A DNA stretch of 64,000 nt, taken from positions 7,102,001 to 7,166,000 of the forward strand of contig NZ_CP022203.1 in assembly GCF_002305895.1 (NCBI RefSeq). Reading direction: 5' to 3'. This document shows, in pieces, positions 38,432 through 44,503 of the stretch. Position numbers and translations under genes: made by a program. Numbering within the stretch: position 1 is the stretch's first letter; each line of letters starts with the position of its first letter. The notes below the pieces were generated by a model. The model worked only from the letters and a program-made list of their open reading frames with translations, was not told the DNA's origin and did not search any database. This DNA is from Corallococcus macrosporus DSM 14697. GTDB lineage: Bacteria > Myxococcota > Myxococcia > Myxococcales > Myxococcaceae.

Positions 38432-38453
38432 CCGTCCGGAGCAGGTCGATGCC

Positions 38454-38510
38454 CGCGGGGCCGCGGGGTCCGGGAGGTGCTCCCGGACCTGGCGGCCCCG
38501 TGGTGTTTCT
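38454..38510 (+). terminator. Strong hairpin between converging genes, putative terminator
   Basis: A perfect 9-bp stem GTCCGGGAG / CTCCCGGAC with a GTG loop (38468-38488) is enclosed by a second pairing of GGGGCCGC with GCGGCCCC, followed by GTGTTTCT on the plus strand. It ends the pentapeptide gene and may also serve the Imm49-like gene from the other side. The T-run is short, so efficiency is uncertain. Confidence 0.5.
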
Positions 38511-38540
38511 GGCGGACGGGGTTACCGGCCGCCCCGGCCC

Positions 38541-39359
38541 TCAGCCCTGCGCCAGCGTGACGCCAGGGAAACCCAGGGGTTCAAAGGGCGCGTAGTCCCG
38601 GCGCCGGGCCAGGTCTGGGCAGAACCGGTACTCGGGCGCCACCTTCAGCCCCAGGGACTCGGCGATGTGCAGCAGCGCCAGTCCCTCCACCAGCACGTAG
38701 CGGTTCGGCTTGAAGGTGTAGTCCCGGGCCAGCGCCGAATCTCGCCAGGGGTCGGCGATTCGCTTCATCCGGGCGGCATGCGCGTCGAGGAGCTCCCTGA
38801 AGGCGCGCTCGAACGCCTCCGAGTCCCGGACGAACAGCGCCTTGGCCACATCCAACCGTGCGTCTGTCCCTCCTTCGAGCGCGCCCTCGAACTGCGCGAG
38901 CAAACGCTCGAGCGCGGCGGGCTCCGGTTGAGGAAGCGCGATGAGCAGGTGCAGGAAGCGCGCATAGGCGAAGTCGTCCGCGTACTCCTCTCCCTGCGTC
39001 CAGGTCTGGGCCGAGAGCGAGGCCAGCCCTCGTGCCAACGGCCATTGCGCCGCGGCCACGGCATCCAGGAAGGCGTCATTCAGGCTCGCCCGGCGGTATG
39101 ACGCATTCGCAGCGCCACCGCGCTCCAGGAAATACCTCCAAGTGAGCGCTGACTGGATGAGCCCGTGGAAGAAGCCGTCGATGTCCGCGTCCTCCAGCAG
39201 CAGGCAGATGGCGTAGGCGCGGTGGTGCCGCGCCAGGTCCAGGTAGACGCGCCCCTTGCTGTCGACATCGGGCTGCTGCGAGGCGCTCTCCGCCAGGGCT
39301 CCAAGATACAGGATGAGGTCTTCCTTCAATCGCGTCAGCGCCACGGCCCCCCCGTTCAA
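38541..39359 (-). CDS. Imm49-like immunity protein
   Basis: 272-residue all-helical protein that I assign to the Imm49 immunity family from its overall pattern: an N-terminal helix, the ARHHRAYAICLLLEDADIDGFFHGLIQSAL region, the WTQGEEYADDFAYARFLHLLIALPQ acidic segment and the C-terminal block LARDYTFKPNRYVLVEGLALLHIAESLG. Such proteins neutralise polymorphic toxins. It begins with TTG at 39359 in a TTGA overlap with the Imm11-like stop. It is the last gene of the PAAR/toxin operon. Family identity rests on recall, not a search. Confidence 0.75.
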   Translation of the reverse strand: MNGGAVALTRLKEDLILYLGALAESASQQPDVDSKGRVYLDLARHHRAYAICLLLEDADIDGFFHGLIQSALTWRYFLERGGAANASYRRASLNDAFLDAVAAAQWPLARGLASLSAQTWTQGEEYADDFAYARFLHLLIALPQPEPAALERLLAQFEGALEGGTDARLDVAKALFVRDSEAFERAFRELLDAHAARMKRIADPWRDSALARDYTFKPNRYVLVEGLALLHIAESLGLKVAPEYRFCPDLARRRDYAPFEPLGFPGVTLAQG

Positions 39360-39952
39360 TAAGTGAACGTGCCAGGCGGCACGAACTGGATGCCCGTCAA
39401 GCCCGCTTCGTTGACGCGCCCCATGACATCGTCTCGGAAGAGAGGGCGATGGGGGAAGCGGCGCATCCTGAAGAGCGAAACGTCCGCGTCAATGCGCTGC
39501 GCATCCAGCACCAGCCGGTCGATGCTGATGAACACCTCGCGGTTGATGGGGTTCTCATCCGCGACGGTCTTCTCCATGTCGATGCAGTCCTGAAGCACGA
39601 CCTGGTGCACGATGAAGAAGGGCCCCTTCTCGACCCGGCCCTTGTGGTTGATGACAGAGACGGGGAGAAACTCGTTGTTCTTCAAGGGCTGAGCTTCCAG
39701 CACCGCTCGCGCCCGAGCAGACGCAACGAGCAGGCCATTCATGTTCTTGATGAAGTCCTCCGTCCGAATGTCATTTGGGAACTCCTCGCTCATCTCGAAG
39801 CGAGCGTCGCGAGGAAACCCATCCTTGCGCGAGAGCCCGTCGAACAACTCATAGTCCCGCTCAACCCCCAGCAACGCCCCCAGGCGGCACGCGCCTCGCC
39901 CTATCCTGGCCAGCCCCAACACGTAGCTCATTGCGTCCTCGCTCCTGCTCAT
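39356..39952 (-). CDS. Imm11-like immunity protein (DUF1629)
   Basis: 198-residue protein matching the Imm11 (formerly DUF1629) pattern: a mixed alpha/beta body, the LPVSVINHKGRVEKGPFFIVHQV core and the closing RPLFRDDVMGRVNEAGLTGIQFVPPG segment, which is the family's typical C-terminus. Such proteins protect the producer from its own contact toxin. ATG at 39952 overlaps the AHH nuclease stop (ATGA); a second ATG at 39931 has a better ribosome site. It is immediately downstream of the toxin candidate, the classical immunity position. Confidence 0.75.
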   Translation of the reverse strand: MSRSEDAMSYVLGLARIGRGACRLGALLGVERDYELFDGLSRKDGFPRDARFEMSEEFPNDIRTEDFIKNMNGLLVASARARAVLEAQPLKNNEFLPVSVINHKGRVEKGPFFIVHQVVLQDCIDMEKTVADENPINREVFISIDRLVLDAQRIDADVSLFRMRRFPHRPLFRDDVMGRVNEAGLTGIQFVPPGTFTY

Positions 39953-40701
39953 TTTCGGAGGGGGTCAGATGTCGCTTCCATCACGTAAGGCTCGTGCCAG
40001 TCCGTCGCCTCCGGGTCATTCTGGCGTTTCCATTGCTTGATGCTGGTGCTTCTGGACTTCAGGCGCTGTCGAAACCTGGTTTCAAGTCGCGTGAGCGCGT
40101 CCTGCACGGCCTGGAAGGTCGCCTTGGAAATCCGGTGGGCATCCTTCTCCTTGTTGAGCACCTGCCACACGTTCTCCATCAAGGCCGAAGTCACGACGTC
40201 ATTGTATTCGGTATGGCCGAATGACACGGGGAGATGGATGGCGATGGTCTCCGGGCTCATGTTGGGGCCACCTGAGACAATCTTGTCGAGCCACCGTTGC
40301 CGGAGCCGTGCTTCCTGTTCGTTGAACTTGCTGACGTACTCTCTCGCCTTCCCCTCGGGGTGCCGCAGCTCGTCCAACGTGCGCTGTCGTTGATAGTGAA
40401 GCGCGTAGATGTTGAAGCTGGGCATCCCCAGCATGTTCGAAGGGCGGTTGATGTTGTACGGCGTAATCCACTTCACCCGCTCGATGTACGCCTGATTCGG
40501 ATGGTTCTCCGTGGACCGGAAGAAGGCATTCTGCGGGAGCAGGTGGTGCGCATTGGCCCAGGGGCCCAGGTATCCGTCCCCTCCGGACCTGCATGAGCGG
40601 CCGTACCGCCGATGCTCGGGCATGCCCTCGTCGTGTTTATGAAACCAGCCCTTCCGCTCCTTCATGAGTTCGTTGATATCGAGATGCGCTTCATCTGACA
40701 T
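39949..40701 (-). CDS. AHH-motif nuclease, candidate type VI toxin effector
   Basis: 250-residue hydrophilic protein. Residues 49-60 read WANAHHLLPQNAF; the AHH triad (51-53) is the signature of the HNH/EndoVII-superfamily AHH nucleases used as toxin domains. A helical C-terminal half of about 150 residues follows. No signal peptide or membrane helix is visible. It lies downstream of a PAAR-like gene and an adaptor-like fusion and upstream of two immunity-like genes, so the inferred role is a DNA-degrading effector delivered by T6SS. The assignment of DNase activity is from family knowledge; the start overlaps the upstream stop by 11 bases. Confidence 0.75.
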   Translation of the reverse strand: MSDEAHLDINELMKERKGWFHKHDEGMPEHRRYGRSCRSGGDGYLGPWANAHHLLPQNAFFRSTENHPNQAYIERVKWITPYNINRPSNMLGMPSFNIYALHYQRQRTLDELRHPEGKAREYVSKFNEQEARLRQRWLDKIVSGGPNMSPETIAIHLPVSFGHTEYNDVVTSALMENVWQVLNKEKDAHRISKATFQAVQDALTRLETRFRQRLKSRSTSIKQWKRQNDPEATDWHEPYVMEATSDPLRK

Positions 40702-43213
40702 CTCCGCCTCCTGGGAAGGGGCCGGTCAGCACGAAGGCTCCCGCGCCTCCGTCGTCGTCCGCGCCCCAGACAAGACAATGGCGGCCAGGCACGCGCCCCA
40801 ACTCGAAGGCACGCACAGCGAAACAGAGCGCGGCGGGCGCCGTCGCCGCCCCGATTTCGCCGAAGGAGAGCGCTGGGAACCACTCCGCGGGATTCGTCAG
40901 GAGCCCGCGCGAACGAAGCGTCACGAGCGCCAGTCCCCAGGCATAGGCCTGACGCTCGGCACCGTTGAGGCTCCCGATGCTCAACGCCACCTGGCGGCCG
41001 TCCACGCCACTTCCTACCAGTGCCCCCGACAGCGTCTCCGCGAGAGCCATCCCCGCGTGCGGAGCGATTGCGCCATTGGCGCGCGGTGTCGCGGTGACGC
41101 TCGGCCCCTCCAGCATGCAGCACGGGGTTGAATGTGGGCCCGCGCATCGCTCACGCCCCAAGAGGACGAAGGCGGCACACTCTCCGGGCGTGCAGCCCAC
41201 GGGCTGCTGAGGAGCCTTCAAGCGGCGTGTTGCCTTGAGTGCCTCCAGGACAGGCGTATCCATGAGACTGTCGACGCCGCCCACGATGCAGTGGTCCAGG
41301 CCCCCGAGCTCCAACTGCTTCCGGGCCTCCTGGAGCGCATGGAAGTAGCCCAATCGTCCCTCGAAATACAGCCGATGCGAGGCCAGCCCACCGAGGGGCG
41401 GGATGAGCCTCGCCAGGATGGGCAGGAGGTGCCGCGCACAGCGCTGGGGCAGCGCGCCTGCTGCCTCGCCGAAGGACTCCTCCATCGCTTCGCCCTGAAC
41501 GTCCGCCTCCTTGAGAAGGGCCGCTGCGCCCGCCGCGACGAGAGAACCGTCAGGCAAGGCGAGGAACAAGCCCGTCCGGGGCATGTCCAACGAGGGGACA
41601 CCGCGCAAGAGGTCGCGCAGCCCCGCGGTAGCGAGCCGCACCAGGCGCGCCAGGCCGGTGAACCCTTCGGTGATGACTGGGATGACGCATCCGGATGCGG
41701 CTCGCATCTCCTGGGCATCCGCGTCCCAGACGTGGACTTCGTCGCTGGCGACGACGCGTGAAAGCCCTGCCCTGCTCGCAGCGCAACTCTCCACGGCGCT
41801 GTCTCCCAGCGGCGAGGCCATCCCGAGCGCGCACACCGAGAGGCTCCCGGGCCGCGACCGCTCGCGTGCCGCGGGCCGCGGGCTCACGCCTGCATTGCTT
41901 GGAGCCTTCGCCCACGTCACCAGCCCCTGCATTCGCTCGAAACCCTGGTCCGAGAACTTTCCAGCGAGCTGGGCTCCCACCACTTCGCGCTTCTGTTGCA
42001 CCGCCCAGGCGTGCAGGGACACAACGTGGGCACCTCGGCTCCGGATGGCCAACTCCAGCGCATGCACAGGCCGTCTGCGTGCCGAGCCATGCTCCAGTGC
42101 CGCAAGAAGCGAGCTCCCGGTCCAGGCGCCGCCGGAGAGAAACCGGCCATCAGGTCGCCACTCCCGGCGTGTTCGCGACCACCACGCAGACACCTCGTCC
42201 GGTTCGGGTATCGGCAGGTCATCCTCGGGTCGCGGCCGAAGGTCGGCGTCGAGGTCTTCCTCTTCGAGTGGCACCAGGGCGTCGTCGGGCGCGGACGGTT
42301 GAAGCACGAAGCGCTCCGTCAGCTTCAACCCCGTCATCGCGGAGAAGGCCTCTCCCGCCAACCGGGCGACAGGCGCCTCGCGCCGTAACAACTCAACGCA
42401 GGCTTCCACCGCCGGCAGGCGACCGCTGAATCCCAACGCCCACAAGGCCTCCCGCGTCCACGTTCCCGATGAGAGCACGTCCACGACCCAGGTGAGCTCG
42501 CGCGCGGCTCCTCCCAATGCGAGAACCACCAATGGGAATCCCAACGGGCCTCGGCGGAGCCTCACCCGCTCCACGCACTCCGCCCAAGTCTGTCCAGGCG
42601 CGTGGACCAGGCCTGCTTCAGCGGCCGATTGCCAGACGATGTCCTCCGGAGACTCAAGCCCCCGCTGGAGCCCCCAGGAAGGCATGGACCGGGGAACACG
42701 CGCGCTCCAACGAAATGCGGCCGCCTGGACCTGCGTGTCTTCGGAGCACCACCAGGGTTGGAGGTCGAAATCCGGCCCACGCTTCCATTGCGCCAGGACG
42801 TCCATCGCGACGGATTGCGCCCACGGTGCCCCTTCCTTCACGAGTTCCCGCAGCATCGGCTCGATGCGTGGGCACGCTCGGGTGCCCAGTGCCCCGGCCA
42901 GGGCTTCTCGCTGCTCCCGGGCCCCGTCGGAGATGAACGCCGCGAGCACCCCGAGCGCGGCGGCGTCATCGCGCGCCATCAACGTCAACACGGCCACGGC
43001 CGCCCGCGCTGGCTCCTCGTGCAAGGCTGCCTCCAACAACTCCAGGACTTGCGGCGCTGTCGCCAGCCCCAATGCATCGACATGGGCTTCGAGCCTGCTC
43101 TCGATTTTCTCTACATCGACCAGGGAGAACTCCGGAGAGCACAGCGCGCGCTGCCGCCGTTCCCAGAGGAAGGCAGCCTCGTCCAAATGCTCTTCGATGT
43201 TGTCCCAGCGCAT
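40691..43213 (-). CDS. HEAT-repeat (TIGR02270-like) and degenerate thiolase/beta-ketoacyl-synthase fusion, T6SS adaptor candidate
   Basis: 840-residue protein with two parts. Residues about 1-330 are helical repeats with alanine/leucine spacing that fit the TIGR02270-like (HEAT/armadillo) family; a loosely ordered acidic linker follows. From about 470 (SLSVCALGMASPLGDS) the protein has the thiolase/beta-ketoacyl-synthase fold: GLDHCIVGGVDSLMD near 665 and the C-terminal half SIGSLNGAER...ALCFAVRAFELG. The position normally holding the catalytic Cys lies in a YFEGRLGYFHAL-type stretch with no Cys, so it is probably inactive as an enzyme. HEAT-like and thiolase-like proteins are known neighbours of T6SS PAAR/VgrG effectors. 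It is 27 bases after the PAAR-like gene. Confidence 0.8.
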   Translation of the reverse strand: MRWDNIEEHLDEAAFLWERRQRALCSPEFSLVDVEKIESRLEAHVDALGLATAPQVLELLEAALHEEPARAAVAVLTLMARDDAAALGVLAAFISDGAREQREALAGALGTRACPRIEPMLRELVKEGAPWAQSVAMDVLAQWKRGPDFDLQPWWCSEDTQVQAAAFRWSARVPRSMPSWGLQRGLESPEDIVWQSAAEAGLVHAPGQTWAECVERVRLRRGPLGFPLVVLALGGAARELTWVVDVLSSGTWTREALWALGFSGRLPAVEACVELLRREAPVARLAGEAFSAMTGLKLTERFVLQPSAPDDALVPLEEEDLDADLRPRPEDDLPIPEPDEVSAWWSRTRREWRPDGRFLSGGAWTGSSLLAALEHGSARRRPVHALELAIRSRGAHVVSLHAWAVQQKREVVGAQLAGKFSDQGFERMQGLVTWAKAPSNAGVSPRPAARERSRPGSLSVCALGMASPLGDSAVESCAASRAGLSRVVASDEVHVWDADAQEMRAASGCVIPVITEGFTGLARLVRLATAGLRDLLRGVPSLDMPRTGLFLALPDGSLVAAGAAALLKEADVQGEAMEESFGEAAGALPQRCARHLLPILARLIPPLGGLASHRLYFEGRLGYFHALQEARKQLELGGLDHCIVGGVDSLMDTPVLEALKATRRLKAPQQPVGCTPGECAAFVLLGRERCAGPHSTPCCMLEGPSVTATPRANGAIAPHAGMALAETLSGALVGSGVDGRQVALSIGSLNGAERQAYAWGLALVTLRSRGLLTNPAEWFPALSFGEIGAATAPAALCFAVRAFELGRVPGRHCLVWGADDDGGAGAFVLTGPFPGGGDVR

Positions 43214-43240
43214 GCCTCGCCCCTGAAGTCGACGCCGAGT

Positions 43241-43705
43241 TCAGAACGCCTTTTCGCAGCTCAAGCAGACGGGTGTGCCGGGAGCCTGGCTGGCGGCGAC
43301 CACGGGGCCCTGCATCACGGGAGACGGTGGCGCGTTCTTGTCGTTGTGCAGCATGAGGTCGAGGGCCCGGGGTACGTTCTTCCCCTCGAATTTCACGTCG
43401 AAGGAGTAGTTGACGAACTCCGCCTTTCCGCGAGTCGTCCCCGACGCTATCCCTCCGCCCGCCGTCCCCGCTTCATCCCCAGTGCTGGTGCTGAAGCACG
43501 AGTCCTTCAAGCAGACAGGGTTGCCCGAAACGGAGACCGTCTTGCTCGCGTTGCCCGTGTCTGACGCCCTGGCGATGTTCGGATACGGAATCGGGACGGG
43601 CCCGGCGGGGCTGGGCGTTTTGCAGAGGTCGGGAAACGACACCGTCACGCCCCCGCTGTCCTGGGTGATGACGGACAGACGATTCACTCCGACCGTGCTC
43701 GCCAT
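43241..43705 (-). CDS. PAAR-like (DUF4150) domain protein
   Basis: 154-residue PAAR-like protein of the DUF4150 group. The start MASTVGVNRLSVI and the following SGGVTVSFPDLCKTPSPAGPVPIPYPNIA block are diagnostic; GNPVCLKDSCFSTSTGDEAGTAGGGIASG and a C-terminal PVCLSCEKAF supply the cysteines typical of a metal-stabilised spike tip. It should cap a VgrG trimer and carry the cargo encoded downstream. An extended frame reaching 43834 has no family sequence, and ATG 43705 gives the usual length. First gene of the five-gene toxin operon; no vgrG is in the window. Confidence 0.9.
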   Translation of the reverse strand: MASTVGVNRLSVITQDSGGVTVSFPDLCKTPSPAGPVPIPYPNIARASDTGNASKTVSVSGNPVCLKDSCFSTSTGDEAGTAGGGIASGTTRGKAEFVNYSFDVKFEGKNVPRALDLMLHNDKNAPPSPVMQGPVVAASQAPGTPVCLSCEKAF

Positions 43706-43872
43706 TGCCTCTCCCAGGGCGCCTCGATGCCGCCCGGATGACGGACAGCCAGCGCCTACGAGGACATGAGAGGCAGGACCGGCTACGTGGGGTCCACGAA
43801 CAGCCAGTCGCCTGTTCGAAAAGCGGAACTGCATGCCCTCCGCATCCAGAACCGCACACCGAACCGCCCTAC

Positions 43873-43890
43873 AGGCCCATGGATGGGCCT
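43873..43890. repeat. Perfect 8-bp-arm dyad in the gap upstream of the PAAR operon
   Basis: AGGCCCAT-GG-ATGGGCCT is fully complementary between arms, lying 168 bases before the PAAR-like start and 26 bases after the MOSC stop. It could be an operator for the toxin operon or an RNA hairpin at the 3' end of the MOSC transcript; no T-run follows it on either strand, so neither role is certain. The rest of the 210-base gap shows nothing I can identify. Confidence 0.45.
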
Positions 43891-43915
43891 TCGCGCAACC
43901 ATCAGCGCGCAGCCG

Positions 43916-44503
43916 TCACGGTGCTGGCAGCACGTACGTCACCGGCCTGGGCAGCACGACCTTCACGGTGTCACCGGCGCGGATGACGCCGGGGCGCTCC
44001 ACCCAGGCCACCAGGCCCCGGCGCTGCCACGCGGCCTTCACGAAGCGGCTCGCCACCTTCGGCACGTCCGGGTGATGCGCCTCGATGACGCGCCCGGGGC
44101 CGATGCAGGGCTCGTTCTCCCCTTCCACCACCAGCGTCGTGTCCTCCGGGAAGAACAGCCGCGTGCCCGGCGGCAGGTGCGTCAGCCGCGGCACGCCCGC
44201 CACCTCCAGGTTCGCGCCCAGCCACGACGCCAGCACGCGCGGAAGCGCCAGGGCCTGCGCCACCTCGGCCAGCTCCTCGGTCGACACCAGGGAGAACTGC
44301 CGCGTGTTGCGGATGGGCGTGCCCTTGGGAAACCACGGCGTGCGCACGTCCGCCGCCCGCGTCAGGCCCGCGTGCCGGTCGCCCTCCAGCCCCTCGAAGG
44401 ACACCCGCGCCTCGGGCAGCTCCTTCGTCACGAAGCTCTTGCGCTCGGTACACACGAGGACGTGCACGATGCGTCCTTCCAACTGCGGCGTCTTGCGGGC
44501 CAT
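43916..44503 (-). CDS. MOSC domain-containing protein
   Basis: 195-residue MOSC-fold protein (molybdenum cofactor sulfurase C-terminal domain). The motif GLEGDRHAGLTRAADVRTPWFPKGTPIRNTRQFSLVS is the family's N-terminal block, and LGANLEVAGVPRLTHLPPGTRLFF, with GPGRVIEA, completes the beta-barrel domain. The invariant Cys expected near ENEPCIGPG is present. Such proteins bind molybdenum cofactor or handle sulfur. It starts at 44503 (MARKTPQLEG); upstream in-frame sequence to 44587 is shadow. It follows the exonuclease gene by 37 bases. Confidence 0.9.
   Translation of the reverse strand: MARKTPQLEGRIVHVLVCTERKSFVTKELPEARVSFEGLEGDRHAGLTRAADVRTPWFPKGTPIRNTRQFSLVSTEELAEVAQALALPRVLASWLGANLEVAGVPRLTHLPPGTRLFFPEDTTLVVEGENEPCIGPGRVIEAHHPDVPKVASRFVKAAWQRRGLVAWVERPGVIRAGDTVKVVLPRPVTYVLPAP

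Follow-up and report, generated by a model that had tools for sequence, protein, structure and literature searches.

In Myxococcus xanthus, toxins of the AHH class (Toxin1-4) are paired with Imm11-family proteins (Imm1-4), each with a single-domain PAAR. Deleting the PAAR eliminates colony boundaries; truncated toxins break down DNA and are bound and neutralised by the Imm proteins (PMC12077131, PMC12077181). MXAN_0050/MXAN_0049 is an AHH/Imm11 pair tested by others (PMC12077131, PMC12077181). TvpD, a protein of type VI secretion system (T6SS) spike assembly, is a proposed structural chaperone (PMC13373197). Here we analyse a five-gene cassette within a 64-kb window (the whole stretch of DNA under study) of a myxobacterium, a predatory and social bacterium of soil. 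The cassette carries a free-standing PAAR, an AHH toxin and an Imm11 gene downstream of it, with the T6SS encoded elsewhere, and on this predicted gene content it belongs to the Myxococcus AHH-Imm11-PAAR kin-discrimination loci (PMC12077131, PMC12077181). In content it does not stand out from other T6SS nuclease cassettes of this known group; what is new is that the role of its Imm49-family gene is open to well-supported doubt. Our main reading, to which we give a probability of roughly 0.75, is of a mobile T6SS AHH-Imm11 cassette that would depend on a distant VgrG and would combine a scaffold fusion, an Imm11 antidote and a probable Imm49 accessory.

Gene content and insertion site

Open reading frames in the window place five intact, leftward genes at the coordinates given in a preliminary description of this DNA. 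The PAAR and fusion genes are separated by 27 bases, the fusion and toxin genes overlap by 11 bases, and the toxin-Imm11 and Imm11-Imm49 junctions are overlaps of 4 bases each, bearing out the compact arrangement described there. The PAAR/DUF4150, TIGR02270, Imm11 and Imm49 assignments of that description were likewise all recovered in profile searches. No sigma-70-like promoter was matched for the cassette, a test that is uninformative in a GC-rich genome. The features are as follows.

43241..43705, minus strand: DUF4150/PIPY-type PAAR spike tip, 154 aa, with the PIPY motif (PF13665, E=1e-39)
43244..43336, minus strand: C-terminal tail of the PAAR, NAPPSPVMQGPVVAASQAPGTPVCLSCEKAF, with CxxC at about 43256-43267 (conserved among tailed PAARs)
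40691..43213, minus strand: 840-aa fusion of HEAT/armadillo-like and thiolase-like (TvpD-like) halves (TIGR02270 and PRK06147 matches)
41987..43213, minus strand: HEAT/TIGR02270 half of the fusion (profile match and comparison of fusions)
40724..41845, minus strand: thiolase-like half of the fusion, with apparent replacement of the catalytic Cys and both His of ketoacyl synthases (profile match and alignments)
39949..40701, minus strand: predicted AHH/HNH-EndoVII type nuclease toxin, 250 aa, with AHH at about 40543-40551 (signature residues; paralogues match PF14412)
39356..39952, minus strand: Imm11 immunity protein, the likely antidote of the adjoining toxin (PF07791, E=1.6e-10; adjacency and co-diversification with the toxin)
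38541..39359, minus strand: Imm49-family protein, predicted all-helical and TPR-like, a proposed delivery accessory (PF15575; AlphaFold model, mean pLDDT 91.6; co-occurrence with CxxC-tailed PAARs)
38521..43925, no strand: inserted cassette segment, absent from sister genomes (empty-site comparison)
38453..38503, no strand: hairpin beside the left edge of the insertion, lying between a convergent pair of host genes (also at the empty site)

At least seven related genomes have an empty site at this position. In the closest relatives the flanks are 91-96% identical, the left flank ending at about 38520 and the right beginning at about 43926. At the empty sites these flanks lie about 15-25 bases apart, indicating that about 5.4 kb was inserted between convergent pentapeptide-repeat and MOSC genes. 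The cassette has a GC content of 66% and its flanks one of 69-73%; no direct repeats were seen on reading across the insertion boundaries, and no integrase is present among the cassette genes. A clean, recent insertion is demonstrable from this comparison of sequences, and the empty site provides a T6SS example of how kin-discrimination cassettes come and go among close relatives.

The AHH toxin and its likely antidote

The focal toxin carries the full residue set (A51 H52 H53, N89, H156, H163 and Y166) of the published Tox-AHH signature '[AG]HH, N, H, H, Y' (PMC3482391), and in an alignment of 33 toxins H52, H53, P94, H156 and H163 are invariant, with N89 and Y166 nearly so. A Pfam search gave no match of this protein to PF14412 (AHH), although five paralogous toxins of the same genome (L032-L036) exceed the cut-off, such that the AHH call in the preliminary description is upheld by signature residues and paralogues but not by a Pfam match of the focal toxin itself. 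The predicted structure is too weak (pLDDT 75) to confirm an HNH/EndoVII fold and has no Foldseek match in the PDB at E<0.001, and a sequence search of the PDB returned no convincing relatives. By analogy with the M. xanthus toxins, we infer that the protein cuts DNA. Elsewhere in the same genome, at about 268 kb, a DUF4150-AHH toxin fusion is followed by Imm11 without Imm49 (L040); here a toxin of this class appears to be delivered in the form of a specialised effector.

For comparison, custom profiles were run on 144 neighbourhoods and then on eight more. PAAR, HEAT, thiolase-like, toxin, Imm11 and Imm49 domains co-occur in 58 loci, more than expected by chance, and in 47 after removal of duplicates; these 47 distinct loci, each with all six domains and one toxin, are the basis of the adjacency and correlation figures. 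A scan of contigs with the fusion as a single sequence gave no match, and the profile scan was successful. Two loci (L112 and L116; BNCN01000007 and BNCN01000005) are titled Comamonas sp. KCTC 72670 but lie on contigs of a genome placed in the window's genus, and the title looks wrong.

Toxin and Imm11 adjoin each other in 47 of 47 loci, followed by Imm11-Imm49 in 40, HEAT-thiolase-like in 36, thiolase-like-toxin in 29 and PAAR-HEAT in 26. With the four other genes controlled, the partial Mantel correlation between toxin and Imm11 is 0.35, whereas that between toxin and Imm49 is 0.02 and not significant (n=47 loci). When the set was thinned to 30 loci, these values became 0.44 and 0.11 (p=0.08), and the difference between the two correlations was positive in 99% of subsamples. 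In the full set PAAR and HEAT also co-diversify (0.38); Imm11-Imm49 values are 0.26-0.32 and Imm49-PAAR values about 0 across the full and thinned sets. Since adjacent genes also travel together, toxin-Imm11 co-diversification is support short of proof. The preliminary description had left the protector of the nuclease as a matter of inference between two immunity genes; constant adjacency and co-diversification make Imm11 the likely cognate antidote, whereas Imm49 shows no co-diversification with the toxin after control.

Imm49 follows CxxC-tailed spike tips

The preliminary description had counted Imm49 as a second immunity protein. The family match scores 33.1 bits against a cut-off of 30.1 (E=5e-8), a fold search with the focal model returned TPR-like matches at E>0.1 only, which are suggestive at most, and the PDB held no convincing sequence relatives. 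Across five complete genomes, a Pfam Imm49 match was found near 18 of 31 Imm11 loci with DUF4150 versus 4 of 67 without (Fisher p=4e-8), a Pfam-based count that under-detects the family (Imm49 at L036, L188, L189, L192 and L197 was found by custom profiles only) but whose direction holds. With custom profiles, Imm49 was found in 61 loci whose PAAR carries a CxxC tail of about 30 residues, while none accompanied the 24 PAARs without a tail or the 19 fused to a toxin, giving 43 loci with neither tail nor Imm49. In these tails PPxPxxQ precedes CxxC; the first motif is present in 64 of 64 tailed PAARs and the second in 63 of 64, and at L133, where the tail has no CxxC, Imm49 is absent. Among loci with both AHH and Imm11, 60 have a tailed PAAR with Imm49, 15 are tailless without it, and two score as short with Imm49 (L114 and L190).

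The apparent exceptions can each be explained. L114 and L125 are cut by the end of the stretch; L031 is a stretch that is too short, and L044, covering the same place, has Imm49. At L190 (L190:6860-7230) the DUF4150 gene is frameshifted, with a tail containing CPEC in another frame and the other cassette genes present. Outside the cassettes, a gammaproteobacterium of the BD1-7 clade (L224) encodes Imm49 (PF15575, E=4e-13) downstream of TssC, an Hcp-like gene and ClpV, in the order DUF6484, tailed PAAR, HEAT, DUF2169, Imm49, TvpD; neither a toxin nor Imm11 is present in this T6SS core operon. Because Imm49 tracks the CxxC-tailed PAAR, is absent at the 15 tailless AHH-Imm11 loci and occurs in the L224 operon, we lean modestly towards a role for the focal protein in assembling or loading CxxC-tailed tips, as an accessory rather than as a second antidote. 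More tentatively, at somewhat less than even odds, T6SS-linked 'Imm49' proteins may in general be misnamed and belong to spike assembly, as a widespread factor for recognising proline-rich CxxC-tailed DUF4150 tips and loading free-standing toxins together with HEAT and TvpD.

The competing view, that Imm49 is a second immunity protein against this AHH toxin clade or against the toxins of rivals, is a real possibility that we nevertheless judge somewhat improbable. It has in its favour the family name (Pfam; Zhang 2012), the frequent adjacency of Imm49 to Imm11, its co-diversification with Imm11 and not with PAAR, and the fact that its occurrence tracks a single broad group of toxin clades. Toxins of the tailless loci mostly form a separate clade, which largely confounds PAAR type with toxin clade; part of the link between Imm49 and the tail could therefore reflect a single ancestral association. 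Some PAAR-less loci also keep TvpD, toxin, Imm11 and Imm49, and L186 has Imm11 and Imm49 only, both of which count against our main reading. Set against immunity are the missing overall toxin-Imm49 co-diversification, the absence of Imm49 from tailless and nearly all PAAR-less AHH-Imm11 loci, its presence without toxin or Imm11 at L224, and loci in which it stands apart from the toxin-Imm11 pair and next to HEAT/TvpD (L035, L191, L194-L196). Its evolutionary rate resembles that of Imm11 and also of HEAT/TvpD and is uninformative on role, and a literature search of limited scope found no report linking Imm49 to T6SS delivery. If Imm49 is an accessory, the immunity annotation is misleading here and screens for immunity would be aimed at the wrong gene.

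Proposed delivery through a distant T6SS

The genome that contains the window is complete, measures 8.97 Mb and is grouped in one genus with 26 others; the named ones among its relatives are Myxococcus. Genome-wide there are 13 DUF4150 loci, 12 substantial TIGR02270 proteins, eight DUF2169 proteins and two VgrGs, one of them next to a single T6SS core cluster (VasE, DotU, IcmF, ImpA, VipA, VipB, Hcp and gp25) far from the cassette and the second elsewhere. Of these genes the window holds only the focal DUF4150 and TIGR02270; as the preliminary description had stated, no vgrG or T6SS core gene lies within the 64 kb. Its proposal of an effector module that loads on a distant VgrG gains support from the family content, the remote core cluster and the two VgrGs.

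The focal PAAR is 67-73% identical to six free-standing paralogues, and seven loci of this genome (L031-L037, the focal one included) combine a free-standing PAAR of about 154 aa with HEAT, thiolase-like, AHH toxin, Imm11 and Imm49; six sister cassettes of the focal type are thus found among the 13 DUF4150 loci. In one of them (L031/L044, 61-69 kb) four Imm11 genes share a cassette and the thiolase-like gene is on the opposite strand. At L184 (same genome, 100-111 kb), L124, L134 and L141 a thiolase-like gene accompanies toxin, Imm11 and Imm49, and neither PAAR nor HEAT was detected in the stretch covered; these cassettes perhaps borrow a spike tip.

No DUF2169 chaperone adjoins the focal PAAR, and the nearest of the eight DUF2169 genes is about 720 kb away. 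The lack of DUF2169 and VgrG in cis, like the toxin's failure to reach the Pfam AHH threshold and the want of a PDB match for its model, counts against our main reading. With TvpC also missing in cis, the cassette could be a stranded remnant unable to fire without its own VgrG, DUF2169 and TvpC; this is unlikely given that all five frames are intact, that the genome supplies DUF2169 and VgrG genes elsewhere, and that M. xanthus single-PAAR cassettes also lie apart from the T6SS yet are functional (PMC12077131). In the mobile-cassette reading, the DUF4150 tip would cap a VgrG encoded elsewhere, the HEAT-TvpD fusion would serve as a catalytically dead scaffold that helps to assemble the tip with the free-standing toxin, and a DUF2169 chaperone, possibly with TvpC, would be borrowed from other loci. 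The Imm49-family protein would assist assembly or loading at the CxxC-tailed tip, the AHH toxin would be injected into neighbouring cells to cut their DNA, and Imm11 would protect the producer and its kin. Such a scheme points to how spike tips that lack a toxin may acquire a separate one, by means of a conserved tail and accessory proteins.

A recurrent HEAT-TvpD fusion

Residues 2-409 of the fusion match TIGR02270 (264 bits, cut-off 206.8) and residues 457-830 match nearly the whole of NF004798/PRK06147 (E 9e-49). As the latter score of 166 bits is below the equivalog cut-off of 342, the thiolase-like half classifies by profile as a divergent PRK06147/TvpD relative without equivalog status. 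The two halves resemble T6SS spike-assembly proteins, namely TvpD and, as we infer from gene order, the armadillo-like gene of DUF2169 synteny type A (PMC11883445), to which TIGR02270 would correspond.

Both domains share an open reading frame in 30 of 103 HEAT sequences of the comparison set, and the HEAT and thiolase trees each show five or six changes between the fused and unfused state, indicating that fusion was gained or lost repeatedly; the predicted single-frame protein is uncommon yet recurrent in other genomes. A deltaproteobacterial metagenome-assembled genome encodes the opposite order, TvpD-HEAT (L156:5678-8257), and Myxococcus eversor AB053B (L079/L113, ORF L113:5980-9066) encodes HEAT, thiolase-like and AHH toxin domains in one frame of 1029 codons, the toxin replacing the last ~50 residues of the thiolase domain. 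The existence of both fusion orders suggests that the HEAT and TvpD halves work in contact, and the HEAT-TvpD and HEAT-TvpD-toxin frames support physical association of these proteins. A proposal of direct thiolase-toxin contact was dropped, as their co-diversification (0.33 overall) was not robust to subsetting (0.19 in the non-adjacent and 0.01 in the adjacent subset).

In alignments with ketoacyl synthases, with motif equivalences read by eye, FGE.GAA replaces GH and LNG replaces HGT; the catalytic Cys and both His appear not to be conserved, making a scaffold role likely. That the thiolase-like half is instead an active ketoacyl synthase, modifying the toxin or making a small molecule, is very improbable, as weak sequence similarity to such enzymes is offset by the apparent replacement of these residues and by the chaperone role proposed for its relative TvpD. 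As one polypeptide, the recurrent fusion should make the poorly understood accessory proteins of synteny type A easier to study.

Comparison with known systems

As in the Tvp class II systems represented by P. aeruginosa PA0096-PA0098/Tse7 (PMC13373197), and as in synteny type A of DUF2169 (PMC11883445), the focal cassette pairs a DUF4150 tip with a PRK06147/TvpD protein, and it shares an armadillo-like gene with synteny type A. Unlike them, it keeps the toxin separate from the PAAR, fuses TvpD to HEAT and adds an Imm49-family gene, and TvpA (DUF2169) and TvpC (DUF6484), which characterise Tvp class II, are absent in cis. The AHH-Imm11 pair is shared with SitA5 loci, which function in outer membrane exchange and have no PAAR (PMC12077181); PAAR-less AHH-Imm11 loci counted here, picked by PAAR absence and not by Sit identity, almost never have Imm49. 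With the M. xanthus Toxin1-4/Imm1-4 loci (MXAN_0050/0049 type) the cassette shares an AHH nuclease, Imm11 directly downstream, a linked single-domain PAAR and a single distant T6SS. It differs from them in the fused HEAT and TvpD and in its absence from sister genomes at this site. The available portions of the M. xanthus accounts are silent on Imm49, HEAT and thiolase-like genes, and it is the Imm49 neighbour of such pairs that the present analysis has examined.
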